DNA of 64,000 nucleotides from Rhodothermaceae bacterium Tc-Br11_B2g6_7 (lineage in GTDB: Bacteria; Bacteroidota; Rhodothermia; Rhodothermales; Salinibacteraceae): positions 32,096 through 96,095 of the forward strand of contig LKNB01000005.1 of the NCBI GenBank assembly GCA_001564055.1, given 5' to 3'. A program made the position numbers and the translations under genes. Under the pieces are notes generated by a model, which was not told the DNA's origin, ran no database searches, and was given only the letters and a program-made list of their open reading frames with translations. The first letter of the stretch is position 1. Every line of letters starts with the position of its first letter. Below are positions 3,736-64,000 of the stretch, in pieces.

Positions 3736-3741
3736 GGGCTC

Positions 3742-4887: not shown

Positions 4888-5006
4888 CACCGCTATACGG
4901 TACCAGCGCACACGCCTGCCCCGTCGCGTCCCGGGTCCGTGCCGTCCGGCAGCACGATGCGCCTCTGCGCCTCCGCCCCCATGCTCCCACATCCCCAAAC
5001 TTCCTC

Positions 5007-5498: not shown

Positions 5499-5589
5499 GA
5501 CACGGCGGGGCCGGGTCGCGAGTGGTACAGTGAGCACGTCAAGGGGACGGTAGGGGGGTTCTCAGATACGCCCCCATCCCACCCCCAAA

Positions 5590-6816: not shown

Positions 6817-6852
6817 GATGCGTTGGTCGGTGGCGATGGATGAGCGCCGGGG

Positions 6853-7314: not shown

Positions 7315-7398
7315 AGCGTTAGGGGGTACGTGGCAAGGGTGGATAGCGAATGGACGTACATGGGCAACCGGCGTAGGGCACACGGCCTGCCGTGCTCG

Positions 7399-8283
7399 TC
7401 AGAGCAGCGGGCGCCGGTCCGTGTCCTGCTCTTCCTCATCCGGGAGAAAGTAGAGCGGCAGCTCCGGCACGTCATCTACCACATCATAGTAGAAGAGGTG
7501 CTGCCGAAACTCCGTAAGGCTGGCAATGGCCAGATCATCGAAGCGCACGCGGAGCCCGTCTTGGTAGAACTCGTGCAGTGCCGGGGAGGTCTCTTGGGAT
7601 TGTACCCAGAGGCTGCGGCGCTCGGCGGAGGCTTTCACCAGATCACGCACGGAGCGCACCGCATCGGGCGAGGCGGTGCCTTTCCGCATGGCGAAAACGC
7701 CCCACACCATCGGGTACTTGGCGTGCTCGAACCATTCCTGCCCCAGGTCCAGCGCAAGGTCCTCGTAGGAGCGGGTGGCCACTTCGGTGCCGATCACAAG
7801 GCGCGCGTCGGTATCCGCCGCGGTAATCTCTGCGATGGAGGCGCCTTCCAGAGCGATAAACTCGGGCACGATCCCGTAGTGCTCTTTCAGCACGATGCGG
7901 GCCAGCAGGGCCTCTTGTGGGTAGGCCGGATCGTAGGCGATGTGGCGAATCTGGCCCAGCCCATGCCGGAGCAGAATTTTGGCGTAGGGATAGGCCCACG
8001 TGGAGAGCGCGACGGCCGGCAGCACGTCGACGGCTTTGGGGTTGGTCAGTGGCACCAGCGTTGGCACCAGCGCCACGTCTACCTGTCCGCCCGTGAGCAG
8101 ATCAGCGCACTGCCGCATGTCGGCCCGGGCGACGCGGAGCGTGATGGGGGTCTCGATGTCATCGCGGGCCGATACCATAAACTCGGCCGGCGGGTAGTCC
8201 CAGATGGCAAGCTGCATGGCGGTGTAAGGCGATGAGAAAGAAGCCGACGCAACGGGCGTCGCAACAAAAACCCGCCGTCTCAT
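7399..8283 (-). CDS. mqnA: Menaquinone biosynthesis protein, MqnA/MqnD-type fold (likely MqnA, chorismate dehydratase); internal start near MQLAIWDY
   Basis: Periplasmic-binding-like sequence with VDVALVPTLVPL..., HIAYDPAYPQEALLARIVLKEHYG. Confidence 0.7.
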   Translation of the reverse strand: MRRRVFVATPVASASFSSPYTAMQLAIWDYPPAEFMVSARDDIETPITLRVARADMRQCADLLTGGQVDVALVPTLVPLTNPKAVDVLPAVALSTWAYPYAKILLRHGLGQIRHIAYDPAYPQEALLARIVLKEHYGIVPEFIALEGASIAEITAADTDARLVIGTEVATRSYEDLALDLGQEWFEHAKYPMVWGVFAMRKGTASPDAVRSVRDLVKASAERRSLWVQSQETSPALHEFYQDGLRVRFDDLAIASLTEFRQHLFYYDVVDDVPELPLYFLPDEEEQDTDRRPLL

Positions 8284-8297
8284 AACGAAGCGGCGGG
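8266..8297 (-). terminator. Rho-independent terminator downstream of rplS
   Basis: On the minus strand CCCGCCG-loop-CGGCGGG followed by TTTTT. Confidence 0.8.
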
Positions 8298-8337
8298 CGC
8301 GGCCGCTCCGTAGTAGAGCGGCAAGCTGTCGAACCAG

Positions 8338-8700
8338 TTACGACTTGGGGTCGCGCATGCGCTCGCGGATGCGGGCGGACTTGCCCTTGCGGTCGCGCAG
8401 GAAGTACAGCTTGGAGCGACGCACCCGTCCCTGGCGGTCCAGGTCGATCTTCGCGATACGGGGCGAGTGCAGCGGGAACGTGCGCTCGACGCCGATGCCA
8501 CCGGAGACCTTGCGCACGGTGAACGTCTTGTTCGCTCCGGAGCCGCGCTGCCGGATCACGACGCCCTTGAAGAGCTGAATGCGTTCCTTATCCCCTTCCA
8601 CGACCCGTACGTGGACGGTTACCGTGTCGCCGGGTTTGAAGTCGGGGTGGTCGTCGCGAAATTGCGTCGCTTCGACCAGGTTCATGAGATCGGTAGCCAT
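8338..8700 (-). CDS. rplS: 50S ribosomal protein L19
   Basis: [60 protein letters not shown]; start at 8700. Confidence 0.95.
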
Positions 8701-8770
8701 GACGTGCGGAGGTTTAATAACTATGGGGAATGAACAGGCCCGGCCGAGAGCCGGGGCCGCCTTTCGGCGT

Positions 8771-9472
8771 CTATAACGAAGTATCGGTGGTGTCGTGCAG
8801 CAAATCGGGCCGGCGCTCGGCGGTTTTTTCGCGACGCTGTGTGGCCCGCCAGGCGGCAATACGCTGGTGGTCCCCTGAGCGCAGGACCTCGGGGACCTCA
8901 CGGCCGCGGAAGGAGGCCGGGCGGGTGTACACCGGCGCATCGAGCGCGTCTTCCTGGAATGAATCGCTCAGGGCGGACTGGGCGTCGCCCAGCACCCCTG
9001 GAATCAATCGTGCGACCGCGTCAACCAGCACCAGCGCCGGAAGTTCGCCTCCGCTGAGCACGTAGTCGCCAATGGATATCTCGCGCGTAACGAAGGCATC
9101 GCGCACGCGCTGATCAATCCCTTTGTAGTGGCCCGCAATGAGCACCAGGTGCTGTCGCAGCGACAGCGCGTTCGCCATCGGCTGATCCAGCACCTCACCA
9201 TCTGGGGTCAGGAAGATGACCTCATCGGGAGCGGTGCTGGCGGTGGCCGTCACGTGCTCCACGGCAGCAAAAAGCGGCTCCGGCTTCAGCACCATACCGG
9301 CACCGCCACCGTACGGATAGTCGTCGATCTGCCGATGCTTGTCTGTCGCGAAGCTGCGCAGATCATGTACATGCACCGTCACAAGCCCCTTATCCTGGGC
9401 CCGGTGGAGGATGCTCTGGTCGAGCGGTCCCTCTACAATTTGCGGCAGTGCCGTGATGATGTCGATGCGCAT
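8771..9472 (-). CDS. trmD: tRNA (guanine-N1)-methyltransferase
   Basis: [59 protein letters not shown]; start at 9472. Confidence 0.95.
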
Positions 9473-9542
9473 GGCGCGGTGCAGCGTTCGTCTACTATTT
9501 CCGTGTATGTCCCGCGGGCTTAACGCCTGCAGGAGCAGATTT

Positions 9543-10079
9543 TCAGTCGAGCAACCCTTCAATCGGGCGGATGACAATGCGGCCGTCTTCCGGATTCAGT
9601 TCATCGATGAAGGCGGGTACACCGGGAATCATCGCGTCAGCTTTGCCCGGGCGTGCCACCACGTACACCGGATTAGCCGGCGTGTCGAGGATGTCCCGCA
9701 CGGTGCCAACAGGCTCACCGGTGTCTGTCTCGACAGCCAGCCCGACGAGATCGTGCAGGAAGACCTCATCGTCCGACACCGGGAGCTCGTCGAGGGGGGC
9801 GTAGACTGTTGCTCCTTTGAGCTGCTCGGCCGCCTCGCGACCATCAACGCCCGCAAGCCGGGTCAGCACCAGCGGGCCTTTTTTGGTCTGCTGATGCCGG
9901 ACGGAGGTCACGGTGTAGGCCGTCACGGCATCACTGGAACGCCCGAGGTACAGCGTATCCAGCGCTTCAAAGCGACCCGGATCGTCCGTTTCCGGGACAA
10001 TCTTTAGCTCGCCCCGGACGCCGTGGGGGCGCACTACCCTACCCATCTCAACAAGCGTATCGGTGTCAGGCATGGGCAT
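9543..10079 (-). CDS. rimM: Ribosome maturation factor RimM
   Basis: [43 protein letters not shown]; position between trmD and rpsP. Confidence 0.9.
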
Positions 10080-10109
10080 GGCAAACCGTGGCGCACGGGG
10101 TGTGGGAGC

Positions 10110-10853
10110 TTACTTGTCTTCCTTCTCGTCTTCCTCGTCCGTAGTGTCGTCCGCTTCAGCGTCGGCATCGGCGTCATCAGCCTTGGCTTTTGCATCGGCG
10201 TCATCAGCCTTGGCTTTTGCCTCGGCGTCATCGGCCGTAGCGTCGGCACTTTCGGCGTCAGCCTCTGGCGCGGCATCCGCTTCTTCAGCGGCTTCAGCTT
10301 TTTCAGCGGCCTCGGCCTCAGCTTTGGCCTCAGCTTCAGCTTTTGCTTTCGCCTTGGCCTCTTCCTCGGCCTTCTTCTTGGCTTCTGCGGCCTTCCGCTT
10401 GCGCTCCTCCTCTTCCTTGCGCTTGCGTTCGGCTTCCTCGGCCTCCAGCTTGGCGACGCGCTCGCGTTCAGCCTCCAGGGCTTGCTTGCGGCGCTCGGCA
10501 TCGGTAAGGGCGATGGAGGAGGCTTCGCGCTCCTCGTGGCGCTCCCGGTGCTCGGTCACGGCCTCCTCAATCTGCGGCTCGGAATACCCTTTCCGGCGCA
10601 TGTGCAGGGCCAGCATCACCCCCCGCTTGCTCAGGATGCTGCGTACGGTGTCGCTGGGCTGTGCGCCCTGCTCCAGCCAGTACAGCACGCGGTCTTCCTT
10701 GAGCGTTACCTCAGCGGGCTCGTTTAGCGGGTAGTACCGCCCTACATCTTCAATGTAGCGGCCGTCGCGCGCGCGGCGCTTATCGGCGGCTACAATCGCA
10801 AAAACGGGTACCTTCCGGCGGCCCATGCGTCGCAATCTCAGTCGTACGGACAC
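10110..10853 (-). CDS. rpsP: 30S ribosomal protein S16 with a long charged C-terminal extension
   Basis: MSVRLRLRRMGRRKVPVFAIVAADKRRARDGRYIEDVGRYYPL, followed by ~160 aa of Lys/Glu/Ala/Asp-rich sequence. Confidence 0.93.
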   Translation of the reverse strand: MSVRLRLRRMGRRKVPVFAIVAADKRRARDGRYIEDVGRYYPLNEPAEVTLKEDRVLYWLEQGAQPSDTVRSILSKRGVMLALHMRRKGYSEPQIEEAVTEHRERHEEREASSIALTDAERRKQALEAERERVAKLEAEEAERKRKEEEERKRKAAEAKKKAEEEAKAKAKAEAEAKAEAEAAEKAEAAEEADAAPEADAESADATADDAEAKAKADDADAKAKADDADADAEADDTTDEEDEKEDK

Positions 10854-10906
10854 GTGATTCGTGGTCTGTTGTGGGTGTTAAATCGAGTGATGCAGGCCTT
10901 CCGGGT

Positions 10907-12295
10907 TTAGAACGGCGGCTTTGCGCTGCCGCCCATCTTGCCCACATCCATATTGTTAAGCATTTGCTGGATGTCCATCTTCCGCCCCTTGCCCATGAGC
11001 TTGGACATCGACTTCATCATTTTCTTCATTTCCTTGAACTGCTTCAGCAGCTGGTTCACGTCGCGGACGCGGGCGCCACTGCCCTTGGCAATGCGCCGGC
11101 GGCGGCTGCCGTCGATGACGGAGGGATTCAGGCGCTCTTCGATCGTCATAGAGAGAATCATAGCCTCAATGTGCTTGAAGGCGTCATCGTCTACGTCGAG
11201 GTTGCGCACCTTTTTGCCGATGCCGGGAATCATACCCAGCAGGTCCTTCATCGAGCCCATCTTTTTGATGCGCTGCAGTTGCTGGTAGAAATCCTCGAAG
11301 TTGAAGTCGTCCGACTGCATCTTCTGCCGCAGCTTCTCGGCCTTCTTCTCGTCGAACTCCTCCTGGGCTTTCTCCACGAACGTGACAATGTCGCCCATCC
11401 CGAGGATGCGCTGCGACATGCGTTCGGGATAAAACTCCGTGAGCGCATCGAGCGTCTCGCCGGTGGAGGCAAACTTGATCGGTTTGTTGACGACGGAGCG
11501 AATGGAGAGGGCAGCGCCGCCGCGGGTGTCGCCGTCCAGTTTCGTGAGCACGACGCCATCGAAGTTCAACTGCTCGTTGAACTCCTTCGCCGTGTTTACA
11601 GCATCTTGCCCCGTCATGCTATCGACGACGAAGAGGATCTCGTGGGGCTCCACCGTGTCACGGATGTCAGTGACCTCCTGCATCATCCGCTCGTCTACGT
11701 GCATGCGGCCGGCCGTGTCGATGATGACGACGTCGCGGGCTTTGGTGCGGGCCTCTTCAACGGCCTCCTTTGCCACGCGAACGGCATCCTGCAAGGGCTC
11801 GCCGTTCTCCATGCGGGCATACACCGGCACATCGATTTCGCTGGCGAGCTTCTGCAGCTGGTTGACGGCAGCCGGACGATACACGTCGGCCGCAGCCAAT
11901 AGGGGGGCACGGCCTTGGCGGCGGAAGTGCCGGGCGAGCTTGGCGCAGAAGGTCGTCTTGCCCGAGCCCTGCAAGCCGGCCACGAGAATGACGGTAGGCG
12001 GATAGTCCGGCTCGTTGATGCCGACATGCTCGCCGCCCAGTAGTTCGGTCAGTTCGTCGTGTACAATCTTCACGAGTTGCTGCCCCGGCGTCACGGAGTT
12101 GAGCACCTCGTCGCCCGTGGCTTTTTCCTTCACCTGATCGGTGAAGTCGCGGGCCACCTGGTAGTTCACATCAGCATCCAGCAGCGCGCGGCGTATCTCG
12201 CGCATCGTCGCCGCAATGTTCAACTCGTTGATCCGTCCTTGACCCGTGACGTTTTTGATCGCGCCTTCGATCTTGTCAGATAAGCTTTCAAACAT
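10907..12295 (-). CDS. ffh: Signal recognition particle protein Ffh
   Basis: GLQGSGKTTFCAKLA, DTAGRMHVDERMMQEV, TKLDGDTRGGAALSI, Met-rich M domain. Confidence 0.96.
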   Translation of the reverse strand: MFESLSDKIEGAIKNVTGQGRINELNIAATMREIRRALLDADVNYQVARDFTDQVKEKATGDEVLNSVTPGQQLVKIVHDELTELLGGEHVGINEPDYPPTVILVAGLQGSGKTTFCAKLARHFRRQGRAPLLAAADVYRPAAVNQLQKLASEIDVPVYARMENGEPLQDAVRVAKEAVEEARTKARDVVIIDTAGRMHVDERMMQEVTDIRDTVEPHEILFVVDSMTGQDAVNTAKEFNEQLNFDGVVLTKLDGDTRGGAALSIRSVVNKPIKFASTGETLDALTEFYPERMSQRILGMGDIVTFVEKAQEEFDEKKAEKLRQKMQSDDFNFEDFYQQLQRIKKMGSMKDLLGMIPGIGKKVRNLDVDDDAFKHIEAMILSMTIEERLNPSVIDGSRRRRIAKGSGARVRDVNQLLKQFKEMKKMMKSMSKLMGKGRKMDIQQMLNNMDVGKMGGSAKPPF

Positions 12296-12447
12296 AACGT
12301 TGGTACACGGATGAGCAGTGCGGCGGCATCATGACGGTAGCGCATGCCAGAGGCGTGCGGCACCCAGCGCGAAATTGCCGGTAAAATAGCAATGCATAAG
12401 CACGATATGCAAGCATCGTTGATCCTGCGGCCATGGACCACCTACAG

Positions 12448-12849
12448 CTATTCCGTAGATTCTTCACGGGCCCGGGCCAGGTCGAGGGTCTCAACGGCAT
12501 GGCGGAGATGCGGGATCACGATAGAGCCGCCCACCACCAGTGCCACGTTCATGGCATCCTCCAGCTCTGCATCCGTATACCCGGCCTTCACGCACTGCAG
12601 CAGGTGGTAGTCGATGCAATCGTTGCAACGCAGCACCATCGAGGCCACAAGCCCGAGCAGTTCCTTCGTGTCCCCTGACAGTGCGCCGTCGTGGTACGCT
12701 GTAGTATCGAGGTTAAAGAAGCGCTTGGTGCCCCGGTGCGTGCCCTGCTGCAGGATGCGCTCGTTCATGCGCTCGCGGTAGGCATCGAACGCGTCCAGGC
12801 GGTTTGCGGCGGCGGTATCGGATGAAGGCATGGGTATGAGGAACGTCAT
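12448..12849 (-). CDS. Carboxymuconolactone decarboxylase / AhpD-like family protein; start possibly 12829
   Basis: SMVLRCNDCIDYHLLQCVKAGYTDAELEDAMNVALVVGGS with a CxxC..H active-site motif. Confidence 0.8.
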   Translation of the reverse strand: MTFLIPMPSSDTAAANRLDAFDAYRERMNERILQQGTHRGTKRFFNLDTTAYHDGALSGDTKELLGLVASMVLRCNDCIDYHLLQCVKAGYTDAELEDAMNVALVVGGSIVIPHLRHAVETLDLARAREESTE

Positions 12850-12944
12850 GAGCGATCGAAAAGGGCAACCACAGGCAGAGGCGCCGTGCCGGCAAAACCT
12901 CGGCGCTTCGTACGCCGTGTATAGCGTGAAGCGCGACTGTTTTC

Positions 12945-13562
12945 TTGCAACAGCTGATGCAGCCTATGATAGCAGAAGACGCAACAAAAGCGGCGCTGCG
13001 GCGGCGGTTTCGTGACCTTCGCGCGAAGGTGTGCCCTGCCGTACAGGCGCAGCGCAGCCAGGCAATGATCGCGCACACCCTCGCCCTACCTATGGTCGCG
13101 GCGGCGGACACCGTACACTGCTACTGGCCGCTGCTGGATCAGGGCGAGGTTGACACCCGCCCGCTCATCCGGGCCCTCCTCGACCGCGGCGTTCGGGTGG
13201 TGCTCCCGGTGGTGCGGCAGTTCAGTACCGCACGCGGCAATGCGCCCCGTATGGTGCACCGCGTGCTGGACGGGCGAGCGGCGCTGCATCCCAACCGGTG
13301 GCGCGTATGGGAGCCGCTGGCCGGATCGGAAGTCTTGCCGGCTGACCTCGACGTCATCATCACCCCCGCCCTGGGGGCCGACCGGCGGGGCTACCGCGTG
13401 GGCTTTGGGATGGGCTACTACGACGAGTTGCTGCAGGCCTCGCCGGCTCGGAGCGTTTGCCTGCTCTACGCTGCTGCTATCGCCCCCCGCGTACCGGCCG
13501 AAGCGCACGACACCCCCGTGGACGTGCTGGTAACGGAGGACGGCGTGAGACGTGTACCATAG
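12945..13562 (+). CDS. 5-formyltetrahydrofolate cyclo-ligase
   Basis: KAALRRRFRDLRAKV, LGADRRGYRVGFGMGYYDELL. Confidence 0.9.
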   Translation: MQQLMQPMIAEDATKAALRRRFRDLRAKVCPAVQAQRSQAMIAHTLALPMVAAADTVHCYWPLLDQGEVDTRPLIRALLDRGVRVVLPVVRQFSTARGNAPRMVHRVLDGRAALHPNRWRVWEPLAGSEVLPADLDVIITPALGADRRGYRVGFGMGYYDELLQASPARSVCLLYAAAIAPRVPAEAHDTPVDVLVTEDGVRRVP

Positions 13563-13613
13563 GCGGCTGGCAGCCTCAAATCATCAATTGAGGCGCGGCT
13601 GCGTAACAAACAA

Positions 13614-14339
13614 TTGCGCCCTATCGTACAGGCTTTGGCATCTAACAAATGGCGAGGACCCATGAGCTCACGACAGAAACAACGCACAGCTGACCGGGAC
13701 CACCTGCAGCAATCTCTGCAGGTGGACGACATCTCGTCCGTAGACCTGGACCGCCTCTCGCAGGACGAGCTCGAGTCAATCCTCTTCGAGCCTGATGCCG
13801 AGGACAGCAGCAGCCTCCTGAACCTGCCCAACCTGGCCGGGCTTGCGCTCATCGGCGTCGGCATTGCCTACCTGTTTCAGCAGCTGGACTTCCTGCAGGG
13901 GGTGGACCTGACCATGCTGGCGAACATGCTGCCGTTTATCGCCGGGATTCTCATCATCCTGGTGGGCTTTGGCGTGCTCTCGTGGAACCCCGACCGCAGC
14001 AGGGACACGCCCTCCCTTCGCTCGAAAACCGCACCCGACGTCACGCCCGAAGAAGAGGCTTCCCTGCGCGAGGCGCTGAAGGATCACCTGCGCGACCGCG
14101 ACGCCGAGAAGCGCTCGCGCCTCACCAAGTCGCGCTTCAACAAGAAGATCTCCGGCGTATGCGGGGGGCTGGCCGAGTATTTCAACATCGACCCCACGCT
14201 CGTACGCATCATCTTTGTCGCCGGCACCATCTTCTCTTCCGGCACCTTCATTCTGCTATACATCGCGCTGGCGCTCATTCTGGATAAGCCGGACGACCTG
14301 TCCTCTGACGAAGTGATCTCTATCATCCGCGACTCCTAA
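13614..14339 (+). CDS. PspC-domain membrane protein; start possibly 13662
   Basis: RLTKSRFNKKISGVCGGLAEYFNIDPTLVRIIFV (PspC domain) plus additional TM segments. Confidence 0.85.
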   Translation: MRPIVQALASNKWRGPMSSRQKQRTADRDHLQQSLQVDDISSVDLDRLSQDELESILFEPDAEDSSSLLNLPNLAGLALIGVGIAYLFQQLDFLQGVDLTMLANMLPFIAGILIILVGFGVLSWNPDRSRDTPSLRSKTAPDVTPEEEASLREALKDHLRDRDAEKRSRLTKSRFNKKISGVCGGLAEYFNIDPTLVRIIFVAGTIFSSGTFILLYIALALILDKPDDLSSDEVISIIRDS

Positions 14340-48574: not shown

Positions 48575-48823
48575 ATGGCCGCTCTTACGCTAAAAGGGAT
48601 CCCCGAAGAGGTGATGGAGCGCCTTCGCGCCCTGGCCGATAAGGAGCGTCGAAGTCTGAACCAGCAGGCGATCTTGCTCCTGGAACGCGCCGTCGCCGAG
48701 CAACCGGCATCCTTCAGCACAGCCTACGAGCAGTTCCGCGAGCAACGCGGCCCCTCACCGCTCAACGAGGAAGACCTTGACCGCTTACGTAGTGAAGATC
48801 CTGGACGAGAGGTCCGGCTATGA
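48575..48823 (+). CDS. FitA/VapB-like ribbon-helix-helix antitoxin
   Basis: MAALTLKGIPEEVMERLRALADKERRSLNQQAILLLERAV; stop overlaps the downstream PIN gene start by 4 nt. Confidence 0.85.
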   Translation: MAALTLKGIPEEVMERLRALADKERRSLNQQAILLLERAVAEQPASFSTAYEQFREQRGPSPLNEEDLDRLRSEDPGREVRL

Positions 48824-49239
48824 TCACGTACCTGTTGGATACAAATGTCATTTCTGAGCCCGTTCGTCCTGACCCAAACGACGCCGTCCTTGCCCAGCTG
48901 AATGCGCACAGTAGTGAGGTGGCGCTGCCTGCACCCGCGTGGCACGAACTGGTCTACGGCGCCGAGCGGTTGCCCGAAGGCAAGCGGCGGAGTTACCTGA
49001 TGCGCTACCTTACGGAGGTGGTGCGTCCCTCCATGCCCATCGTACCGTACGACGACGAGGCGGCCCGCTGGCATGGCATCGCCCGTGCAGCGCTGGAAGC
49101 CGAGGGGCGCACGCAACCATTTGTCGACGGGCAGATTGCGGCCATCGCTTCGACGCGCAGCCTTATTCTGGTCACGCGCAATACGTCAGACTTTGAGGCC
49201 TACGACGAGCTTCACGTGGAAGACTGGTTTTCTGGCTGA
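48820..49239 (+). CDS. PIN-domain toxin (VapC/FitB type)
   Basis: YLLDTNVISEPVRP, ELVYGAERLPEGKR, PFVDGQIAAIASTRSLILVTRNTSDFE. Confidence 0.9.
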   Translation: MITYLLDTNVISEPVRPDPNDAVLAQLNAHSSEVALPAPAWHELVYGAERLPEGKRRSYLMRYLTEVVRPSMPIVPYDDEAARWHGIARAALEAEGRTQPFVDGQIAAIASTRSLILVTRNTSDFEAYDELHVEDWFSG

Positions 49240-52279: not shown

Positions 52280-52618
52280 CTAAAGGCCGCTGAGCACTTT
52301 ACGCAGGTACGCTTCATCCCACCCCGCGCGGAGTCGTCGGTTCTTGATGCCCGCTGAGCTGGTCGGCTCTTGCTTCAGCAGGTTCAGCGCCAGGCGGCGC
52401 ACCACCGCCATGTTTTGCGTCGCATGTCTTGTACGGATATATCTCTCGTCTTCCCGGAAGGCTACGTCCAAGACCCAGTGCAGCTTAATCTCAATGTGCC
52501 AGTGCTGGCGCACCGCGCGTAGCAGCACCTCGGCCTCAGGAGCAAGGCTGCTGATGTAGTAGCGCCGCTGCGTCGTTGTCTTCTCGCCATCGAACCGCTC
52601 GTGCTGGACCATGCACAC
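52280..52618 (-). mobile_element. ISAs1-family transposase, C-terminal fragment
   Basis: YYISSLAPEAEVLLRAVRQHWHIEIKLHWVLDVAFREDERYIRTRHATQNMAVVRRLALNLLKQE, characteristic of ISAs1 DDE C-termini; N-terminal portion absent. Confidence 0.85.
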
Positions 52619-53429: not shown

Positions 53430-55127
53430 ATGGCCCGGATGATTCCCACGTACAATCCGCCTACGGATAGCGCCGCAGAGGCGAAGGTCTACTGCTGGCT
53501 CGCGGAAGGCCTTCCCGATGACTACGATGTCTATCACTCGGTAGACCTGTTTCATAAGACCGAACGAGGCCTGCGGGAAGCGGAGGCGGATTTCGTGATC
53601 GTGCATCCGACCAAAGGCCTGCTTATCCTTGAAGTGAAGGGCGGTCAGGAGATTTACTATGACGGGCAGGTCTGGCACTCCATCTCGCATTTCGGCGGCG
53701 ACTACGTGACCAAAGACCCCTTCAAACAGGGGAGACATAACCTGCACCAGTTGCTCAAGCGCGGCAAAGATGTAGGGCTCTGGCAGAAGGAGTCCGAGAT
53801 CAATTTCCTGCGCGGCTACGGCGTGGTCTTTCCTGACGTAGCCTGGACGGGCAACGAGCCCCTTCCCGCTCACGCGGATCATCTCCTGATTCGTGATCAA
53901 CGCCTTCGCGTCGACACCAAACAGCAGATCGATCGGCTGTTTAACCCGTGGGGCCGTCAGGAAGGAGGTAACACCACTGCCAGAGTCCAGCTGCGGGCCT
54001 TCACGCAGGAAGTGCTACAGCCCACCTTTCGCGTAAAGCCCTCCCTTAAACTTCAGATTGCGGAGAACGACGACACGTTCGTGCGCCTAACGGAGGGGCA
54101 GAACAAGACCTACAACGGCGTCCTGAAGACCAACCGGCGGGCGCTCATTGAAGGGTATGCGGGTACGGGCAAGACCTTTCTGGCCCTGCACCGGGCGGCC
54201 GACCTCGGGCGCGAGGGGCACCGTACGCTGTTTCTCTGCTTCAACCGGCACCTGTCCACCTACGCCCAACAGCAGGCCGCCGACGTCCCCAACCTCACGG
54301 TGTCGACGTTTCATCACCTGGCCAAACAGGCCGCCGCAACGACCCCGGGCCTCCGGTTTCCTTCCCGCCCGGATACCGACTTCTGGACGACTGGGGCCGC
54401 AGACTTGCTACTGGAAGCTGCCGAGCGCACGGGACTCTCGTTTGATGCTATCCTGGTGGATGAAGCGCAGGATTTTCAGGACGCCTGGTGGGTGGCCGTG
54501 CAGTCCCTCCTTACGGACGACGCCTATTTCTATGTCTTCACCGATCCCGGCCAAAATATCTACCACGGCAACCTGAGCGACGAATTGGGTCTGCCCACCA
54601 CCATCTGCCTCACAGAAAATTGCCGCTCCACCCGGGAGATCCGCACGTTTGCAGGCTCTATCTTGCAGCGCGACGAAGATAGCGCCGCGTTCGTGGTCCA
54701 GGGCCAGCCCGTCGCCACGGAAGCCTTTGAGCAGCGGGAGGATCAGTACGAACAGCTCCGCACGATCGTGAAGCAGTTGAAGCAGGATGAGAACCTCCGT
54801 TCAAAGGACCTGCTGCTGCTCTCCCCCTACACGTACGACAACATGCTGCTGGCCGATCACAACCACCGCCTCGGCGGCTACAAGGTGGCGCCATACGACC
54901 CCCTCACCCCGCCCGACGAGCAAACGCTCTACTACGAGAGTCTGCAGGCTTTTAAGGGCATGGAGGCCCCGGTGGTGGTGCTATTTGACGTCCGTCTTGA
55001 CTCCAGCGCCAATACCCGCGAAAACATGTACGTGGCCGCCTCTCGGGCTCAGCATGTGCTGTATGTGCTCCACGAAAAGGGATGGAAAGAGGACATGGTG
55101 GCGGCACAGCACCCTGCTGCTGCTTAG
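53430..55127 (+). CDS. NERD-domain plus UvrD-like superfamily I helicase
   Basis: NERD: EAKVYCWLAEGLPDDYDVYHSV...EADFVIVHPTKGLLILEVKGG; helicase: GYAGTGKTFLALHRA, ILVDEAQDF, LTENCRSTREI. Confidence 0.9.
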   Translation: MARMIPTYNPPTDSAAEAKVYCWLAEGLPDDYDVYHSVDLFHKTERGLREAEADFVIVHPTKGLLILEVKGGQEIYYDGQVWHSISHFGGDYVTKDPFKQGRHNLHQLLKRGKDVGLWQKESEINFLRGYGVVFPDVAWTGNEPLPAHADHLLIRDQRLRVDTKQQIDRLFNPWGRQEGGNTTARVQLRAFTQEVLQPTFRVKPSLKLQIAENDDTFVRLTEGQNKTYNGVLKTNRRALIEGYAGTGKTFLALHRAADLGREGHRTLFLCFNRHLSTYAQQQAADVPNLTVSTFHHLAKQAAATTPGLRFPSRPDTDFWTTGAADLLLEAAERTGLSFDAILVDEAQDFQDAWWVAVQSLLTDDAYFYVFTDPGQNIYHGNLSDELGLPTTICLTENCRSTREIRTFAGSILQRDEDSAAFVVQGQPVATEAFEQREDQYEQLRTIVKQLKQDENLRSKDLLLLSPYTYDNMLLADHNHRLGGYKVAPYDPLTPPDEQTLYYESLQAFKGMEAPVVVLFDVRLDSSANTRENMYVAASRAQHVLYVLHEKGWKEDMVAAQHPAAA

Positions 55128-55518: not shown

Positions 55519-56562
55519 TCACACCGCCGGCACCCACACCTGTTGCAGCGGGATCTGCGCTTTGAATTCGGACTCCAGGTTCTCGTAGTGCTGCAGCATC
55601 AGCTGAATGAACCCATCGCGGTCGAACAGCGCGACCGTCTGGTGGGCGTGCTCCGCTTCGAGTTTGGCGTCGCGCGTAAAGCCGCCGGTGGAAACAAAGA
55701 TGCCTTTCTCGTCGGACCGTAACGTGCCAATGAATGAGCGCATCTCCGGACCGCCCGAGGTGCTCTGCCTATGCTTAACCTGAGCCTTGATGAGCGGCTG
55801 TTCAAAACCGAACGCGTCCGGGTGGGCGACGATATCCACGCCTCGATCGGGGCCGGGTGGGGTGCTCACGGCTTCAAAGCCCATGGCGCGCAGCACGCCG
55901 GCCACCAGGTCCTGAAAGTCAAACGGATCGAGGCCGTGGATCAGATCGGCAATGCGCTCGTCGGCCTGTGCCTTTACCTCATCGTACAGCGGCGGCGCCT
56001 CATCGGCTCCATCTTCTTCCGTTATCACTGCCGCGGGCTCTCCGCGCGAGAGGCGCTTAATCTCTTCGATATAATCCGTCAGGGAGAATACGGTCAGCGA
56101 GCTACCCATCGAGTTGCGGGCGGCTGTGCTGAACGCATCACGGGAAATCCGGCGCTCCCAATCTACCGGACGCGTGTGGTCATAGTCTTCATCCAGCATG
56201 CCCGGGCGGTAGGCATAGTCCCCGGAGATCCGGCCGATGAGTAGCTCCCGGCTGGCTTTGATGTACGTGAGCACATAGTCGCCCTCCTGCACCTCGCGAA
56301 CGAAGCGGTACAGTTGCCCGGCATTGACGGCCCGGCGGTGTTTGGAATGATCGGGATAAACGTCCCGGTAGCGCTCCTTAAACTCCGCGCGGGTCTGAAG
56401 GCCGGAGAGGTCACCCATCGCTGTCCAGCCAATCGCTACAATTTTAAGCTCCTCCAGCCGATCGGGCAGTTCATTTTCATTACCGGCGCGGACCATCCAG
56501 GCGTTTGCTTGGGGCATTAGGTCTGAATTGTCAGTTGTGAGTTGTCGAAGGTACTTGCTCAT
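55519..56562 (-). CDS. Restriction endonuclease: N-terminal EVE/PUA-like domain plus C-terminal Mrr-type PD-(D/E)XK nuclease
   Basis: N-term WMVRAGNENELPDRLEELKIVAIGWTAMGDLS...VQEGDYVLTYIKASRELLIGRISGDYAY; C-term FQDLVAGVLRAMGFEAVSTPPGPDRGVDIVAHPD...IKAQVKHR. Confidence 0.85.
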   Translation of the reverse strand: MSKYLRQLTTDNSDLMPQANAWMVRAGNENELPDRLEELKIVAIGWTAMGDLSGLQTRAEFKERYRDVYPDHSKHRRAVNAGQLYRFVREVQEGDYVLTYIKASRELLIGRISGDYAYRPGMLDEDYDHTRPVDWERRISRDAFSTAARNSMGSSLTVFSLTDYIEEIKRLSRGEPAAVITEEDGADEAPPLYDEVKAQADERIADLIHGLDPFDFQDLVAGVLRAMGFEAVSTPPGPDRGVDIVAHPDAFGFEQPLIKAQVKHRQSTSGGPEMRSFIGTLRSDEKGIFVSTGGFTRDAKLEAEHAHQTVALFDRDGFIQLMLQHYENLESEFKAQIPLQQVWVPAV

Positions 56563-59500
56563 TGGCCCGTCACATACCGCTCCAGACGTTTCAGGTCCTC
56601 CATCCTGCGCACTTCAACCAGCCGGTAACCGAGTGCTCGCAACCGGTTGCGTTTTTCGCGATCTGCCTCGCTAACGTAATCTTTATCGTGATCACTGCCG
56701 TCTACAAAGACAACGATGCGGGGCTCATAGTAAAAGTCAGCGATTGCGATGGGCACATCATCGCCATCGAACACCGTCCGCTGCGCGCCATCTGGCAGCG
56801 GTAGTCGCTGCTTGACGATAGCCTCCAGCACTTTTCGCTCAAAGGTCGATTCGCATGCGGCTTCGAGTGCCGCATATCGCTTGGTGGCGTCCTCCTGTTT
56901 CGCTTCCAGCGTGAGCGATGTAAGTTGCCGCAGGAAGGGTACCACCAGGGTTCGATCCAAGAGGTCGTGGTCGCGCTGATTGTAAAAGGAAAGCAGGCAG
57001 TCATAGCACGCTTTTTCGCAGCCTTCCTCGTCATCGGCATGGAGAATGCGTAGCGCCTCACGAATAACGGCCCGAAGCCGTGGTGGCTTAGTGAGCTGCT
57101 TGACGGCGCCGGTCCCTCCCTCTGCGGTTTCGAAAAGAACGATACGCCGCCGGTCGGCATCTTCCGGCACCTCACCGACAAAGCTCTGCACCTCACTCTC
57201 GTCCAGATCCATCGCTATCGTGAGGGCGCGTTCCAGTGTGTGGCGTAGCGTCGTGAAGAAGGCCTCCGTGTTCTCGACATCCGCCGGGGCACGACATTCG
57301 AGCGTGACCACATCGTTTTCGGAGCGGGTAAACAGATGCACCTGATCCAACACGTCATCGACGGACGCATTATTGGGGCACGTCCGACCATCTGAACCCT
57401 CCGCCGTGTGGTCTGAAGCAGCCTTCGATGTTAGCAACCAGGTGTTGCACGCGGTGCAGTAATTGAACCCGGGGGGCTCATCGCGCTCTTCATCCAGGTG
57501 CGGCCCGGAGTTGATCGTCAGCACGCGCCCGTTGTGCTCGTAGGTTACTTCTGCTTGCTCCTCGCTACCTGACAGCACGCTGAAGGTGGACCGCTTGCCG
57601 GGCTCGTAATAGGTATCAATTTGATACCCTTTCCGCATCCGCTCCTCCTCGTCTGCGGTAATCGACTGCCGTCGCATGGCCACCATGTCGGGCATTGGAA
57701 GCCCACGCGTGATAGGATGTTCGTGCTCCAACGACTCGTTGCATACCTTGCATCGTACGAGCCGTGTGTTCTCTTCCCCCATGTAGACGGTATCACAACC
57801 CGGGCATACCAGAATTTTCTCGAACGCAAGCCCGTCGTCTTCCTGGGTTTGAGGGCGCCCGTAGGTAACCGCGTACTTGCTTCCCGCGAAGTAGATGATG
57901 TTACCCGGCGCATACTCGCGGAGCGCCAGGACAGGGTCGCGGCGCAGCTCGCGGTCGCGGTCTGAGAATGACACACTCGTGGTCTGTCGCGGAAACGCAT
58001 AGTTCGGCAGGAAGCCCTGGCTGCCAAGGTAGCGATACGTGTAAAACGTACCTTTCCCGTCGCGCATCGAATGCAGTCGGCCCTCGATGACCCGGCGCCG
58101 CACCTGCAGCGAGCGGTCATGGGCGTCACGGCCGAGGCGGCGATTAATTTCCTGTCGCTCCTTGGTTAGGCGCACGTACTCTTCGCGCCACGGCTCGAAG
58201 CTGGCGTCCAGACGATCGACAAATCGCGTCACGGTGTCATCTGCGTGCCCTCGGTCGAACCACGCAAGGGATGCTTCTTCCCTGCTGAAGGCCCGTAGTA
58301 CAGCATCAACGAGTTCAGCTCGCTGCTTCTGGATGGCAGCGCCCAGGTCCGTCCGAAGATCCTGGTAAAGTGGAAACGTCGGCTCGTCGACGTTGAGTAT
58401 CTCCTTTGGACGAGAGGGAAGCTTCCATACGCCACGGTGGGCCAAAAGCTCAAGTACCAGGGCATGCGTGTGACTGCGGATGAGTTGCTTGTTGTCGAGG
58501 AGAAACCGTGGGGGGCTAATTTTTCCAGAGATGATGCGCTCCGGATAGCGGTAGAAGTACTGGTCGTGTGGCCCCCGGTATTGCCCGGCACCACAAAACA
58601 CGCTAATTAAGGCCGGCTGCCCCTTTCGTCCAGCGCGTCCGGCGCGCTGCGCATAATTTGAAGGGTTTGGTGGCACGTTGCGCATGTACACATTGGAGAG
58701 CGACCCGATATCGATGCCCAGCTCCATGGTGGGCGTGCACACAAGCACATTCGTGGGATCCTCGTCGCTTTGAAAGGCGCGTTCGATGCGCTGGCGATCT
58801 TCGCCGCTTACTTGGCCGCTATGCTCCTCGGCGTACACCGGGACGCCCTGGCCAAGCGGCTGATCATATTCAAGCCGAAAATAGTTCTGGCTGAGGTCAA
58901 CATCGCTATCGAGCATGTTGCATGAGCGCTCCGTGCAGACATCAGTTACGTTGAAGTGCTGCACACTCCCACAACGAGGGCAGACCTGATGCTTCGTCTC
59001 GTCGGTGGCAACAAGCTCAATGAGATCCGAGGGTACCATGTAAAGCGTACCGGCATACTTGACATGATGCGTGGTAAGAAACTCCACCTCGGGGGAGGAT
59101 AGCGTGCCTACCGTTGCCTGCAGCACCTCTACGGCTTCCATATACTCTACGTTAAGTGCTCGCTTGGTCCACGCGATGAAGGTGGTGCTGGCGTGCACAA
59201 AGCGCAGCACCTCAGCGTTCTTAGACCGGTTGGATGCCTCGTCGCTGTACCCTGTGGGTTTAATGAACGTGTCACTGACGTCCCCCTCGAGAAACGCTGC
59301 CGGGTTCAGTTTGCCCAAGACCCGGCGCTTGAAGTTATTGAAGTTGGTCAGCGCATCATGCTGTACCGCCAGGCGCTTGCGCATAATGTCCAGAAAGCCG
59401 CGCAGGTAGTCTTCCCGCATATCGGCGTCGAGGTCCTGCAGGACAGGCACGGTCTTCCATGGCTCCTCATCCGCGGCGAGCCGATCCAGACCGCCATAAT

Positions 59501-61784
59501 CCACGCGAAGGAGGCCGGTGTCCTCAAGGTTCTGATGTATGCGACGGTGCGTGCGGCGTAGGTCATGCAGCACGGCAAACTCAAGGTATTCCTCGAACCT
59601 ACGCGAGTCCCCCGCCCCCCGGCGGTATTTGCCGCCTGACTTCTTTTCATAGGTAGGTAGTGCTGCTGCATCCTCCAGCGCACTGTACACCTCGTACCCC
59701 GCCTCTTGCAGCGTTAGCCGGCCACCACTCTCCTCTACTGCTTTGTAGAGCGCCCGCCTGAACTGCAGCCGCTTCTGTAGATCGGTCATGTGCGCGGCCT
59801 GAAGCGCGGTGTCCTGCCTGTTATCCGAAAAGGCAATAACCTTACGCTCAGAAGGCGCCGAGGCGTGCAGCGTATTGGAGACAATCACGTCGGTAGCCGT
59901 TGAGCGCCCAACGGTACCGAACGTAAATAGCTTATTGAATTCAGAAGGTCGGCGGTCGTACGTGATGCCGCACGAGAGGCAGAGCAAAAAGGGTTCGTGT
60001 AGCATCGCCATCGGCTCCCCCTCGCCATCAAGGTCGCTCAGCTTGTTTTCGTTGGCGTTGCACCACAGATTCCGGGGTACGGCATCCTTGTATTTTTTGC
60101 GCACGTTCCCCGTGTCCGTGAGCCAGTTCTCTGGCAGGGGGAGTTCGTTGGTGTCGTGGTGTCCGGGGTATAGATAAACCGGGCTTCCCTCCTCCACCTC
60201 AGCTCCCATCTCGCGCGGCTCCAGCGAACCGTCTTCCTTGACGATCGCGCTGTAGTACTCCTGCCCGCAGCCTCGGCAAAAGTACATCGGGTAGGCTGGT
60301 CGCTCTCGCTCATGCTCCGCGACGCACGTGGGGCAAATGCGCTCACCACGGTCGTTGAGGTGGTGCGTATCCGGGGTGAGGCACGAGAGAATACCGCGTC
60401 CCTGCGTAAAGAAGGCATGCAGCTTCGGAACGAGGCGGGCCGCAGGTTCATCGCTGTGGGAATCTTCGAGGAGCGGAGCAGAGCCTATCAGGATCGCGGC
60501 CTGAAGCTCTCGCAACGCATCTGTGCGGGAAGCCCCTGGCCGGTAGCGCGCCCTATACTCCTCCACCAGGTCGGGCAAAGAGGCTGCGCTTTCAGCCAGA
60601 GCTTCCTCCAAGAACTTTAGCGTCGCCTGGCTGGCTAACGCGTTGCCAAGCGCTGTGCCTGAGCGCTCATGGTCCTGCAGCGTGCGACCAAGCAGCGCCT
60701 CGGCCAGCGCCGCTACCGCGTCCTTGGAGCCGTCAAAGGTAGCGAGGGCCTCCGCCGAGACTTGCACGGTAGGCGCCAGATCGGTGTCGCCCGTGCCGGC
60801 CATGGGGAGATACGATTCCCCGACGACGTTTTCGCGCTTGAAGGTTTCACCGAAGAGCTTGGTCGCAAACTCCGCGATGAGCTCCTCCGCATCCTCCCCT
60901 TCGCCGCTCTGGACGGTCGCGCTGGTGGCAATGCAGCGAAGTTCACCCGCGGTATCTGTATGCTCTTTCAGTCGACGGATGAGACAAGCCACGTCCGAAC
61001 CCCGGCTGCCTGTGTAGGTGTGCACCTCATCCAGCACAAGAAAGCGAAGCACCCCGGCGTGGGCTGGCGGGAAGAGCTTTCGGTCGTTGAAGCGCGTCAG
61101 GAGCAGCTCCAACATGACGTAGTTCGTCATGAGGATGTCAGGTGGGCTCTCCTGGATCTCCTCCCGGCTGATGATTTCGCTGTCAAACGGCTCAGCGCGG
61201 CCCGTGAGGTTGCTGAACTCGGCCCGTGCGCGATCGGCGCTGCTCAGGGTATCGCCAGTGTAGCGGGCCAGGGTGAGGCCAGACCCTGCCAGGCGCTGTG
61301 CAAAGTCCTCGTACTGCGAGTTGGCCAGCGCATTCATCGGGTAGATGATGACGGCCTTGATGCCACTGACGCCTTCATCGCGTAGGCGAAGGCACTCGCT
61401 TACGATAGGGATGCCAAAGGTGAAGGACTTACCCGAGCCCGTACCGGTGGCCACGATGGTGTTGTGGCCGGAGGTGATGGCCCGTACGGCTTCGGACTGA
61501 TGCTTGTACGGCTTGATCGGCGCGGCCTCTCGGTTTCCGTCCTCCACCGTAAACACCTTCGGCGTTTCCGGATGCAGCGCCCCTTCCTCGACGAGGACAT
61601 CAAAGCCCGCTCCCGGCTTGAAACGGCGGCCCAGCTCGATGTAGGGATCGCGCCAAAGGAGCGTGCCCTCCTGCACGCGGTCCTGCACCCACGCGTCGAT
61701 TACCGGGTTGCGGAATTGCTGGAAGGTGTGGACGTACCGCTTATAGGCATCCTGAACGTGGTCGAGCGTGGTGAAGGGGTTCAT
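56559..61784 (-). CDS. 1741-aa DEAH-type superfamily II helicase with DUF1998 region and C-terminal Vsr/PD-(D/E)XK-like domain
   Basis: Walker A ATGTGSGKSFTF, LVLDEVHTY, SATVQ, QRAGRAGRKGQ; Zn-finger-like CPRCG..., CPGCDTVY...CKVC; CEKACYDCLLSFYNQRDHDLLDR; C-term VPIAIADFYYEPRIVVFVDGSDH. Confidence 0.88.
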   Translation of the reverse strand: MNPFTTLDHVQDAYKRYVHTFQQFRNPVIDAWVQDRVQEGTLLWRDPYIELGRRFKPGAGFDVLVEEGALHPETPKVFTVEDGNREAAPIKPYKHQSEAVRAITSGHNTIVATGTGSGKSFTFGIPIVSECLRLRDEGVSGIKAVIIYPMNALANSQYEDFAQRLAGSGLTLARYTGDTLSSADRARAEFSNLTGRAEPFDSEIISREEIQESPPDILMTNYVMLELLLTRFNDRKLFPPAHAGVLRFLVLDEVHTYTGSRGSDVACLIRRLKEHTDTAGELRCIATSATVQSGEGEDAEELIAEFATKLFGETFKRENVVGESYLPMAGTGDTDLAPTVQVSAEALATFDGSKDAVAALAEALLGRTLQDHERSGTALGNALASQATLKFLEEALAESAASLPDLVEEYRARYRPGASRTDALRELQAAILIGSAPLLEDSHSDEPAARLVPKLHAFFTQGRGILSCLTPDTHHLNDRGERICPTCVAEHERERPAYPMYFCRGCGQEYYSAIVKEDGSLEPREMGAEVEEGSPVYLYPGHHDTNELPLPENWLTDTGNVRKKYKDAVPRNLWCNANENKLSDLDGEGEPMAMLHEPFLLCLSCGITYDRRPSEFNKLFTFGTVGRSTATDVIVSNTLHASAPSERKVIAFSDNRQDTALQAAHMTDLQKRLQFRRALYKAVEESGGRLTLQEAGYEVYSALEDAAALPTYEKKSGGKYRRGAGDSRRFEEYLEFAVLHDLRRTHRRIHQNLEDTGLLRVDYGGLDRLAADEEPWKTVPVLQDLDADMREDYLRGFLDIMRKRLAVQHDALTNFNNFKRRVLGKLNPAAFLEGDVSDTFIKPTGYSDEASNRSKNAEVLRFVHASTTFIAWTKRALNVEYMEAVEVLQATVGTLSSPEVEFLTTHHVKYAGTLYMVPSDLIELVATDETKHQVCPRCGSVQHFNVTDVCTERSCNMLDSDVDLSQNYFRLEYDQPLGQGVPVYAEEHSGQVSGEDRQRIERAFQSDEDPTNVLVCTPTMELGIDIGSLSNVYMRNVPPNPSNYAQRAGRAGRKGQPALISVFCGAGQYRGPHDQYFYRYPERIISGKISPPRFLLDNKQLIRSHTHALVLELLAHRGVWKLPSRPKEILNVDEPTFPLYQDLRTDLGAAIQKQRAELVDAVLRAFSREEASLAWFDRGHADDTVTRFVDRLDASFEPWREEYVRLTKERQEINRRLGRDAHDRSLQVRRRVIEGRLHSMRDGKGTFYTYRYLGSQGFLPNYAFPRQTTSVSFSDRDRELRRDPVLALREYAPGNIIYFAGSKYAVTYGRPQTQEDDGLAFEKILVCPGCDTVYMGEENTRLVRCKVCNESLEHEHPITRGLPMPDMVAMRRQSITADEEERMRKGYQIDTYYEPGKRSTFSVLSGSEEQAEVTYEHNGRVLTINSGPHLDEERDEPPGFNYCTACNTWLLTSKAASDHTAEGSDGRTCPNNASVDDVLDQVHLFTRSENDVVTLECRAPADVENTEAFFTTLRHTLERALTIAMDLDESEVQSFVGEVPEDADRRRIVLFETAEGGTGAVKQLTKPPRLRAVIREALRILHADDEEGCEKACYDCLLSFYNQRDHDLLDRTLVVPFLRQLTSLTLEAKQEDATKRYAALEAACESTFERKVLEAIVKQRLPLPDGAQRTVFDGDDVPIAIADFYYEPRIVVFVDGSDHDKDYVSEADREKRNRLRALGYRLVEVRRMEDLKRLERYVTGQ

Positions 61785-61954
61785 AAAAGCAGCAGCCGAG
61801 TTCGATTAAATATTCCTTTACGAAAGACTGATAGTAAATAAATTTCCGGCACACTGGAGACGATGCCTGCAAGGGATCACAAGCCGTCACAGCAAACAAC
61901 GACCTTCGACATGGAGCACCTGGTCCGTCCGGTAAACTTATTGGTTATACTGTG

Positions 61955-63160
61955 TTAATCTTCGACCTTATTCCTCTCTCCATCATCGTTCTTTTCCAGT
62001 CTCTTCAGTTCCTCCTCTGGCGTCTCGTATATATTGATGGGGTCAATGTTGATCGTCGGACTCTGGAGAGACAAGTTTACCGCCCGGTCTTTGGTCATTG
62101 TCTCTTGTTGGAGGCTGAATTGCGCTTCGCTCAGAAACCACTTAGCAAACTCATCTTTCCAGTTTAGCTTTTTCTTAGCGGGTATAACGTTTAGCTTGCG
62201 GTTTACACACCAAGTAAAGAGATCTGCGACCTGAATGAGAATATCCTGCTTTGAGTCGACAGCCTCGAACTTAGCACAATGAAGTTGGTCGTTGAAGATG
62301 GGTCCAACATCTCTATCTAATTGGTTTCGTATGAGGGTAAGAACGCGATCATCATATCCTGTTTCTTCAGCATCCTTGGCGAAAGAGAGCTTTCTCGGTA
62401 GGACTATCCTGTTTGATTCAACCTCGTGCTCCAGTCCTCTTCTTATAAGCCAGTAATAGAGATCAGCAATTACCCTCCCCTCATCCTGGAATCCTCGGTT
62501 CGGGATGCTAATCGCCTTAAAACCAATAATACCCTCACGTAGAACGAATCGCTCAATAAACTCGCGATACTTTGGGACGCGATACTTAGTCACCTCGGAC
62601 GAATGGAACTCATAGGAGACATCATTCCTGTCTTTCCAAGCGTTTGTCTCAACAACGAAGCGAGGATACTCGCCTATTGCCAAGAGCCAAACACTGCCCA
62701 CGAGAAGATGATCGGCATTCTTTCCACTCTCGTCCGCATTCACAAAGATGCTAGGTGCGGGGATGTCTTTTGACGCGTATTCGTCACGATGATCCTTGTA
62801 AAGTTGTTTGCGATGCCGTGCTACTCTTTCATCCGTTGCCCGGAATAACTTGAGGTCGTTCTGAATATGTGCACGTGCCCGCTTCAGGCTGGTTAACCTC
62901 TCGAGTTTGTACATATTTTCAAACGCAACCATACCTCCGCTTAGAAGGTTACGCTGGAAAACCTGCCAGTACTGAAGCTGAAGAGTTACGTCTGAGTTGC
63001 GGGTTTCCGGATACTGAGACAGAATATATGCGACGCGAGATTGAAGAGACGTTAACTTACGTTCGTCACGAACCTGAGCGAGAATTTTCTGTCGTTTTTC
63101 TTCTACCTTTTCAGCTTCGCCGTCTTCAAATAGATCGGCCTGTTTGGCTTTATAAGACAT
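61955..63160 (-). CDS. DUF3800-like protein (RNase H-like fold) with N-terminal helical domain
   Basis: SIFVNADESGKNADHLLVGSVWLL and C-terminal DILIQVADLFTWCVNRKLN, consistent with DUF3800. Confidence 0.7.
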   Translation of the reverse strand: MSYKAKQADLFEDGEAEKVEEKRQKILAQVRDERKLTSLQSRVAYILSQYPETRNSDVTLQLQYWQVFQRNLLSGGMVAFENMYKLERLTSLKRARAHIQNDLKLFRATDERVARHRKQLYKDHRDEYASKDIPAPSIFVNADESGKNADHLLVGSVWLLAIGEYPRFVVETNAWKDRNDVSYEFHSSEVTKYRVPKYREFIERFVLREGIIGFKAISIPNRGFQDEGRVIADLYYWLIRRGLEHEVESNRIVLPRKLSFAKDAEETGYDDRVLTLIRNQLDRDVGPIFNDQLHCAKFEAVDSKQDILIQVADLFTWCVNRKLNVIPAKKKLNWKDEFAKWFLSEAQFSLQQETMTKDRAVNLSLQSPTINIDPINIYETPEEELKRLEKNDDGERNKVED

Positions 63161-63266: not shown

Positions 63267-63638
63267 TCAGAGCAAGTTTTCAGCGGCATCTACAAATCGT
63301 TCCACATCGGCCAGAAGATCTGCCGCGGCCTCTGACTCGAACACCGCAAAGGCATCGTAGTCAGCCCGGTTACGCATAGTCTCCGCCACAGCTAAGATGC
63401 CGGCCGTAGCACGCGGAATGCGACCGGTGCGCACGAAGTGATACGAAAACCGTGTCTTCACGCCGGCGTGCGAACCGGGGGTCTCATCCACGGTGACCAA
63501 CGTGGCCCGCGCGGCATCAAAAGCGGCGTAGTAGGCCCGGTTGACAGCTGCCTCCGTTCGATCGTGCTCCAGCAGAAGCCGGGCATCATTTAAGGCCTGG
63601 CGGGCCTTTCTCATGAGCGCCTCCGCATTTTCGCTCAT
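63267..63638 (-). CDS. HEPN-domain protein
   Basis: LMRKARQALNDARLLLEHDRTEAAVNRAYYAAFDAARATL...ETMRNRADYDAFAVF. Confidence 0.87.
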   Translation of the reverse strand: MSENAEALMRKARQALNDARLLLEHDRTEAAVNRAYYAAFDAARATLVTVDETPGSHAGVKTRFSYHFVRTGRIPRATAGILAVAETMRNRADYDAFAVFESEAAADLLADVERFVDAAENLL

Positions 63639-63982
63639 AGCGCCACGCCCTCCCGGTCAATATTGCGAAGGAGCGGTCGATCTTGGTGAGCAAACTCGTC
63701 CTCACTGAGGTGGACAAGCGACAGAGATACCCCGTGATGTACGGCTACGTCAATAACGATATCGCTGGTGCGCCGTGCTTCGTTTAGCGGATCTACGTCT
63801 CCACCAAGAACGATCAGCACGTCCACGTCGCTGTCCGCGCGAGCGTCCCCGCGGGCATGCGAACCGAAGACGACCAGTCGCTGGAGCCGATCGCCATACG
63901 TCTCTCGGAGCGACTCACGGAGTTCCCGAAGGGCGGCATGGACCCGGAGGGGCATGTCCAGAATGTTTAGCGTGTCGGGCAT
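63635..63982 (-). CDS. MNT-type minimal nucleotidyltransferase
   Basis: RLQRLVVFGSHARGDARADSDVDVLIVL (GSxxxGxxxxxSDxDxxV); stop overlaps HEPN start by 4 nt. Confidence 0.88.
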   Translation of the reverse strand: MPDTLNILDMPLRVHAALRELRESLRETYGDRLQRLVVFGSHARGDARADSDVDVLIVLGGDVDPLNEARRTSDIVIDVAVHHGVSLSLVHLSEDEFAHQDRPLLRNIDREGVAL

Positions 63983-64000
63983 GGGACCTATCTACTGTTA

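Follow-up and report, generated by a model that had tools for sequence, protein, structure and literature searches.

The ARMADA type I gene set consists of a YprA helicase, a BrxHII-like helicase and a PglX-like methyltransferase, a reversed gene order is reported for many archaea and cyanobacteria, and protection by ARMADA type II reportedly does not involve abortive infection (Bell et al. 2025, bioRxiv, PMC12458937). DruE, a relative of the helicase discussed below, loads on 3' single strands (PMC13192584). EVE-PD(D/E)XK type IV restriction enzymes have also been described (Bell et al. 2020, PMC7641849), and McrBC type IV systems have been reported with type I restriction-modification (RM) genes and a DISARM-like YprA cassette among their neighbours (PMC11090510). 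Here we consider a stretch of 64,000 nucleotides (the window) from Rhodothermaceae bacterium Tc-Br11_B2g6_7 (contig LKNB01000005.1; G000:C7:32096-96095 in our numbering), in which three co-directional open reading frames (ORFs) on the minus strand, at 55519-56562, 56559-61784 and 61955-63160, encode an EVE-Mrr protein, a YprA helicase and a DUF3800 protein. An initial annotation had correctly recognised these three genes and had read them as an undescribed two- or three-gene defence system. With a probability that we put at roughly 0.8, they instead belong to an ARMADA type I locus in reversed order, of which the contig end leaves only the right-hand part, followed downstream by EVE-Mrr as an accessory type IV endonuclease. 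The locus is most likely a new combination of known parts and not an undescribed system; it merits a note, with no new system name.

The helicase and its relatives

The helicase ORF (56559..61784, minus strand, 1741 amino acids) was confirmed, with Pfam matches to DEAD (5e-23), Helicase_C (1e-13) and MZB (DUF1998; 7e-9). The protein is intact in the window, retaining Walker A, DEVH, motif VI and the DUF1998 cysteines, and it ends in a Vsr/PD-(D/E)XK-like nuclease motif, ADFYY...VVFVDGSDH...D..KR..L..LGY (56595..56768, minus strand; residues ~1673-1730), which is kept across the ARMADA I clade. Judged by this motif, the C-terminal Vsr-like domain would be a nuclease with its active residues in place. 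A tree of 49 helicases places the window protein inside a clade of 38 rows with full support (SH-aLRT, the Shimodaira-Hasegawa-like approximate likelihood ratio test, 100), apart from a clade of ~2000-amino-acid helicases that show an ARMADA II-like BrxHII-PglX-YprA order wherever their flanks are complete enough. On these sequence relationships, we place the helicase in the ARMADA type I clade. The clade count of 47 loci used below also includes G004, L197-L203 and L205, which joined after the tree had been built and were placed by similarity and context, with no new tree. The best plasmid-borne relatives of the helicase were found in Natrinema, Haloquadratum and Natribaculum (44-45% identity), Thermus (37%), and cyanobacteria, Deinococcus and Nocardioides (~30%), and no relative was found on viral contigs.

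The earlier placing of the helicase in the YprA family of DISARM- and Druantia-like proteins is borne out by these results, as is the view that the locus encodes antiphage-type machinery. Membership of Druantia itself, with the helicase as a DruE protein that has an unusual partner, is a reading to which we give hardly any credence. Window and Druantia share the same YprA defence-helicase family, and the best PADLOC matches of the window protein are DruE1 (454 bits) and DruE3 (425 bits). However, PADLOC-DB 2.0 is dated 2023 and is older than the ARMADA description, so its DruE models pick up ARMADA helicases; our placement corrects what is likely a mis-call. Neither DruA-D nor DruH was found by Pfam or PADLOC among the visible neighbours, related loci carry BrxHII and PglX, and the C-terminus is Vsr-like, in contrast to the two phospholipase D (PLD) domains given for type III (PMC12458937). 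Druantia membership was rejected on the missing Dru partners and the Vsr-like C-terminus, and DISARM was rejected because helicase and DUF1998 lie in one ORF and are not split into DrmA and DrmB.

The ARMADA type I reading draws support from related loci. Of the 47 helicase loci in the clade, 42 carry both a BrxHII-like helicase and a PglX-like methyltransferase. The five others include the window and L040, a locus in a sister metagenome-assembled genome (MAG), both cut by a contig end just upstream, and L120 and L142, cut after or within BrxHII; only L123 is truly without both genes. In every plasmid locus inspected (12/12), genes for a BrxHII-like helicase and for a large PglX-like methyltransferase lie close by. 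Full-length homologues of the helicase are also encoded in two genomes of the window's own family, G017 (59% identity) and G004 (60%), each with both partner genes on the helicase strand; in G017 these are a DrmD/BrxHII-like gene (405 bits) and a DrmMI-like methyltransferase. The window resembles ARMADA type I in the clade of its YprA helicase, its Vsr-like C-terminus, the presence of BrxHII and PglX in orthologous loci and the reversed gene order. It differs in that its contig stops before BrxHII and PglX, and in its extra EVE-Mrr, DUF3800 and HEPN-MNT genes, for which we found no description in ARMADA I loci in the portion of PMC12458937 consulted.

Two further observations concern these relatives. 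Both same-family loci encode a protein of ~350-370 amino acids between BrxHII and PglX (G017:C4:535439-536560 and G004:C21:6381-7436; 37% identical to each other), and the G017 copy matches no Pfam family. At L123 (G067:C1:15000-34999, positions 1104-13949), the ARMADA I-clade helicase lies directly downstream of type III CRISPR-like (RAMP/Cmr-like) genes; this helicase appears as an orphan in an apparent CRISPR operon, the CRISPR assignment having been made by eye from protein starts.

The contig end and the missing partner genes

The contig terminates at the same point as the window (63983..64000; G000:C7:96095), 2.2 kb upstream of the helicase, and BrxHII-like and PglX-like genes would fall beyond it. 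Directly upstream of the DUF3800 gene lie two genes identified by Pfam, encoding a HEPN protein (63267..63638, minus strand) and an MNT nucleotidyltransferase (63635..63982, minus strand). The initial annotation had overlooked both this pair and the coincidence of window end and contig end, and it had counted the lack of a recognisable methyltransferase nearby among the reasons why the locus fits no named system. Because the window edge is the contig edge and everything upstream of MNT is unseen, this lack does not show that the system has no methyltransferase; given the PglX-like and BrxHII-like genes of the related loci, it reflects either the contig end or a loss and does not characterise the family. 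The locus thus provides an example of a contig end making a known system look new.

The complete locus in G004 runs BrxHII, small conserved gene, PglX, several small genes, MNT, HEPN, YprA helicase, and the window runs MNT, HEPN, DUF3800, YprA helicase, EVE-Mrr. The window HEPN protein is 76% identical to the one encoded immediately before the ARMADA I helicase of G004, and of the four HEPN matches in the G004 genome this one is the best; the MNT protein is 65% identical to its G004 counterpart. This HEPN-MNT synteny is the strongest sign that the window locus continues into PglX and BrxHII. The full order would then be BrxHII-like helicase, PglX-like methyltransferase, variable inserts and YprA helicase, with the first two genes presumed to lie beyond the contig end.

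Several points weigh against this reading. It should be noted that the tree placing the helicase in the ARMADA I clade contained no Druantia reference sequence. The window's own assembly (G000, 88.9% complete) gave no PglX-like match anywhere and only weak SNF2-type matches in a search for BrxHII, and a MAG of the same genus (G002) is also without PglX or a strong BrxHII match. The G002 locus (L040) encodes proteins 96% (helicase) and 82% (EVE-Mrr) identical to those of the window, but codon 98 of its helicase gene is an in-frame TAA, which could mean a decaying copy or an error in the MAG sequence. A contig break lies a short way upstream of the helicase region in G000 and G002 alike, which makes gene loss and an assembly gap indistinguishable, and the presence of BrxHII and PglX in this genome cannot be shown from the current assembly.

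These points allow a second scenario, in which the locus is a reduced remnant: BrxHII and PglX would have disappeared from the lineage, and what is left would be an orphan YprA helicase beside an EVE-Mrr type IV nuclease that still works on its own. The failure to find PglX or a strong BrxHII match extends to three genomes (G000, G001 and G002), the premature TAA of the G002 helicase fits decay, and L123 shows that a clade member can be without both genes. Nevertheless, we consider this scenario unlikely, since the window helicase ORF is intact with all its motifs, and the HEPN-MNT synteny runs to the contig end just as in the complete G004 locus. Very unlikely, in our estimation, is a variant in which the ARMADA I helicase has been repurposed in this genus and, with neither PglX nor BrxHII, has become the partner of EVE-Mrr in a methyltransferase-free, modification-dependent helicase-nuclease system.

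The EVE-Mrr protein as a probable accessory nuclease

The EVE-Mrr gene (55519..56517, minus strand) is a predicted type IV endonuclease gene that encodes 332 amino acids from the start common to its relatives, and its product matches the PADLOC profile PDC-S02 over its full length (E 1e-107). A start at the earlier ATG (56562) would yield a protein of 347 amino acids and a four-nucleotide ATGA overlap with the helicase gene, from which translational coupling had been proposed. The ATGA is present in the sequence; it is probably not used, and the overlap is not conserved. Homologues have their first residue at the equivalent of Met16 (56517), 15 codons later, PDC-S02 aligns from residue 18, and the sister MAG (L040) has no ATG, GTG or TTG upstream of the Met16 equivalent. 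Because homologues start at Met16 and the sister MAG is without an earlier start codon, the gap between the two genes is likely 41 nucleotides in the window and 46 in L040.

The domain calls of the initial annotation were recovered by Pfam for Mrr, DEAD/Helicase_C/DUF1998 and DUF3800; Pfam did not recover EVE for the reader domain, yet the predicted fold of this domain matches EVE and YTH structures. The Mrr catalytic domain (55597..55938, minus strand; Mrr_cat 2e-22) keeps residues D228, Q246 and K248 (numbered from Met16), of which D228 and K248 are invariant across 16 sequences and position 246 is Q or E. For the reader (56038..56517, minus strand; PUA superfamily), Pfam EVE was not listed even at E 10, hhalign reached a probability of 22% with a small set of EVE proteins and 0.1-39% with EVE proteins taken singly, and a PDB profile search with the reader alone returned no credible match. 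An EVE assignment by sequence alone was dropped after the Pfam and hhalign results, and the predicted fold decided instead. In a Foldseek search with the AlphaFold model (pLDDT, the per-residue model confidence, 85.5), the top 28 PDB matches were all EVE or YTH structures (probability 1.00, TM-scores 0.4-0.57), led by 1zce (E 3e-4), the EVE-domain structure of the Agrobacterium protein Atu2648, and followed by YTH domains. The reader is EVE/YTH-like by predicted fold, and the modest TM-scores make this an assignment of fold, not of specificity; W31 and W120 are candidate residues of its base pocket.

In a profile search of the PDB, the EVE-Mrr family matched MspJI (E 1e-5) and AspBHI, and Foldseek of the full model agrees. 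These proteins (4f0p and 4oc8), the best full-length structural matches, likewise pair a modification reader with an Mrr-like nuclease, although their reader is SRA-like whereas that of EVE-Mrr is EVE/YTH-like. The protein also resembles the EVE-PD(D/E)XK type IV enzymes (PMC7641849) and PDC-S02 in joining an EVE-like reader to a PD-(D/E)XK (Mrr) nuclease, and differs in that the window copy adjoins an ARMADA I helicase and not the more usual type I RM genes. By modelled fold and catalytic residues, EVE-Mrr looks like a modification-dependent (type IV) nuclease, as had been proposed.

The same reader domain was also found on McrB-type AAA_5 ATPases and on one HNH protein. The McrB-type examples are at L010 (= G017:C1), L039 and L007; one L010 protein has two copies, and in L039 the domain lies beside a separate Pfam EVE domain.

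Recurrence of the helicase/EVE-Mrr pair across genomes had been suggested as a check, and the pair is not conserved. EVE-Mrr occurs in 3/47 helicase loci, namely the window, L040 of the same genus, and L119 in G244, where it lies 18 nucleotides after PglX in an intact ARMADA I operon; it has apparently joined ARMADA I twice. Its relatives elsewhere mostly adjoin type I RM genes (L042-L044, L048, L050-L053, L157, L158 and L204), lie once beside BREX genes (L054) and once beside another methyltransferase-helicase set (L049), or stand alone. DUF3800 (61955..63160, minus strand, 401 amino acids) was indeed found as a co-directional gene 170 nucleotides upstream of the helicase, with a Pfam match of E 6e-6 and a weak PADLOC match to PDC-M04A; it occurs in 0/46 other helicase loci, was rejected as a core component and is a variable insert. 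EVE-Mrr and DUF3800 are not conserved partners of the helicase.

These distributions bear on the dedicated two-gene system originally proposed, in which the helicase would feed or activate EVE-Mrr for helicase-assisted, modification-dependent restriction with no methyltransferase. The pair is adjacent and co-directional in two MAGs of the same genus, with proteins 82-96% identical, as such a system would have it. We regard it as highly improbable, however, given that G004 and G017, the nearest relatives, have no EVE-Mrr, that it is missing from 44/47 helicase loci and is found elsewhere with type I RM, with BREX or alone, and that the ATGA overlap is not conserved.

Proposed division of labour and neighbouring genes

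The comparisons above show gene content, homology, clade membership, synteny, fold and catalytic residues; for an ARMADA type I locus with an accessory EVE-Mrr, we propose a likely scheme in which every activity is inferred. PglX would methylate host DNA as a self mark, and, by analogy with work on ARMADA and DruE, the YprA helicase, which carries the Vsr-like nuclease domain, would act together with the BrxHII-like ATPase: they would load on unmarked invading DNA, unwind it and cut it. EVE-Mrr would act independently, its EVE/YTH-like pocket flipping out a non-host modified base and its Mrr domain cutting, and would thereby cover phages whose modified DNA evades the methylation-based system. 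HEPN-MNT would probably serve as a toxin-antitoxin guard of the locus. YTH domains bind N6-methyladenine (m6A), and PglX-type enzymes are expected to make m6A; hence the reader would have to recognise another base or ignore the host motif. A modest but useful point is that EVE-Mrr is often found beside methylation-based defences (type I RM, BREX and ARMADA), which fits a division of labour with one arm against unmarked DNA and the other against modified DNA that escapes the first. The pairing of EVE-Mrr with ARMADA I has apparently arisen twice and is open to synergy testing. In other genomes, McrBC adjoins ARMADA I genes on the Nocardioides plasmid pNOCA01, and an EVE-domain protein (Pfam EVE 3e-12) follows PglX in a Chlorohelix ARMADA I locus (L093, 24089 onward).

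In ARMADA I loci of reversed order, the genes that separate PglX from the helicase often seem to include toxin-antitoxin modules, an impression drawn from G017:C4, G004:C21, L092, L095 and the window at 63267-63982. The modules are DarTG in G017, HEPN-MNT in G004 and the window, PIN/AbrB in Chroococcidiopsis and UPF0175/DUF3368 in Euhalothece.

On the other side of the locus, a NERD-UvrD helicase gene (53430-55127, plus strand; PADLOC RTasNERD-Hel, 232 bits) is convergent to EVE-Mrr, and no homologue of it was found in the sister MAG contig L040. A transposase fragment (DDE_Tnp_1; 52280-52618, minus strand) lies close to the downstream edge of the island. Further out, a VapC-like protein (48820-49239, plus strand) is 76% identical to one encoded directly upstream of BrxHII in the G004 ARMADA I locus.

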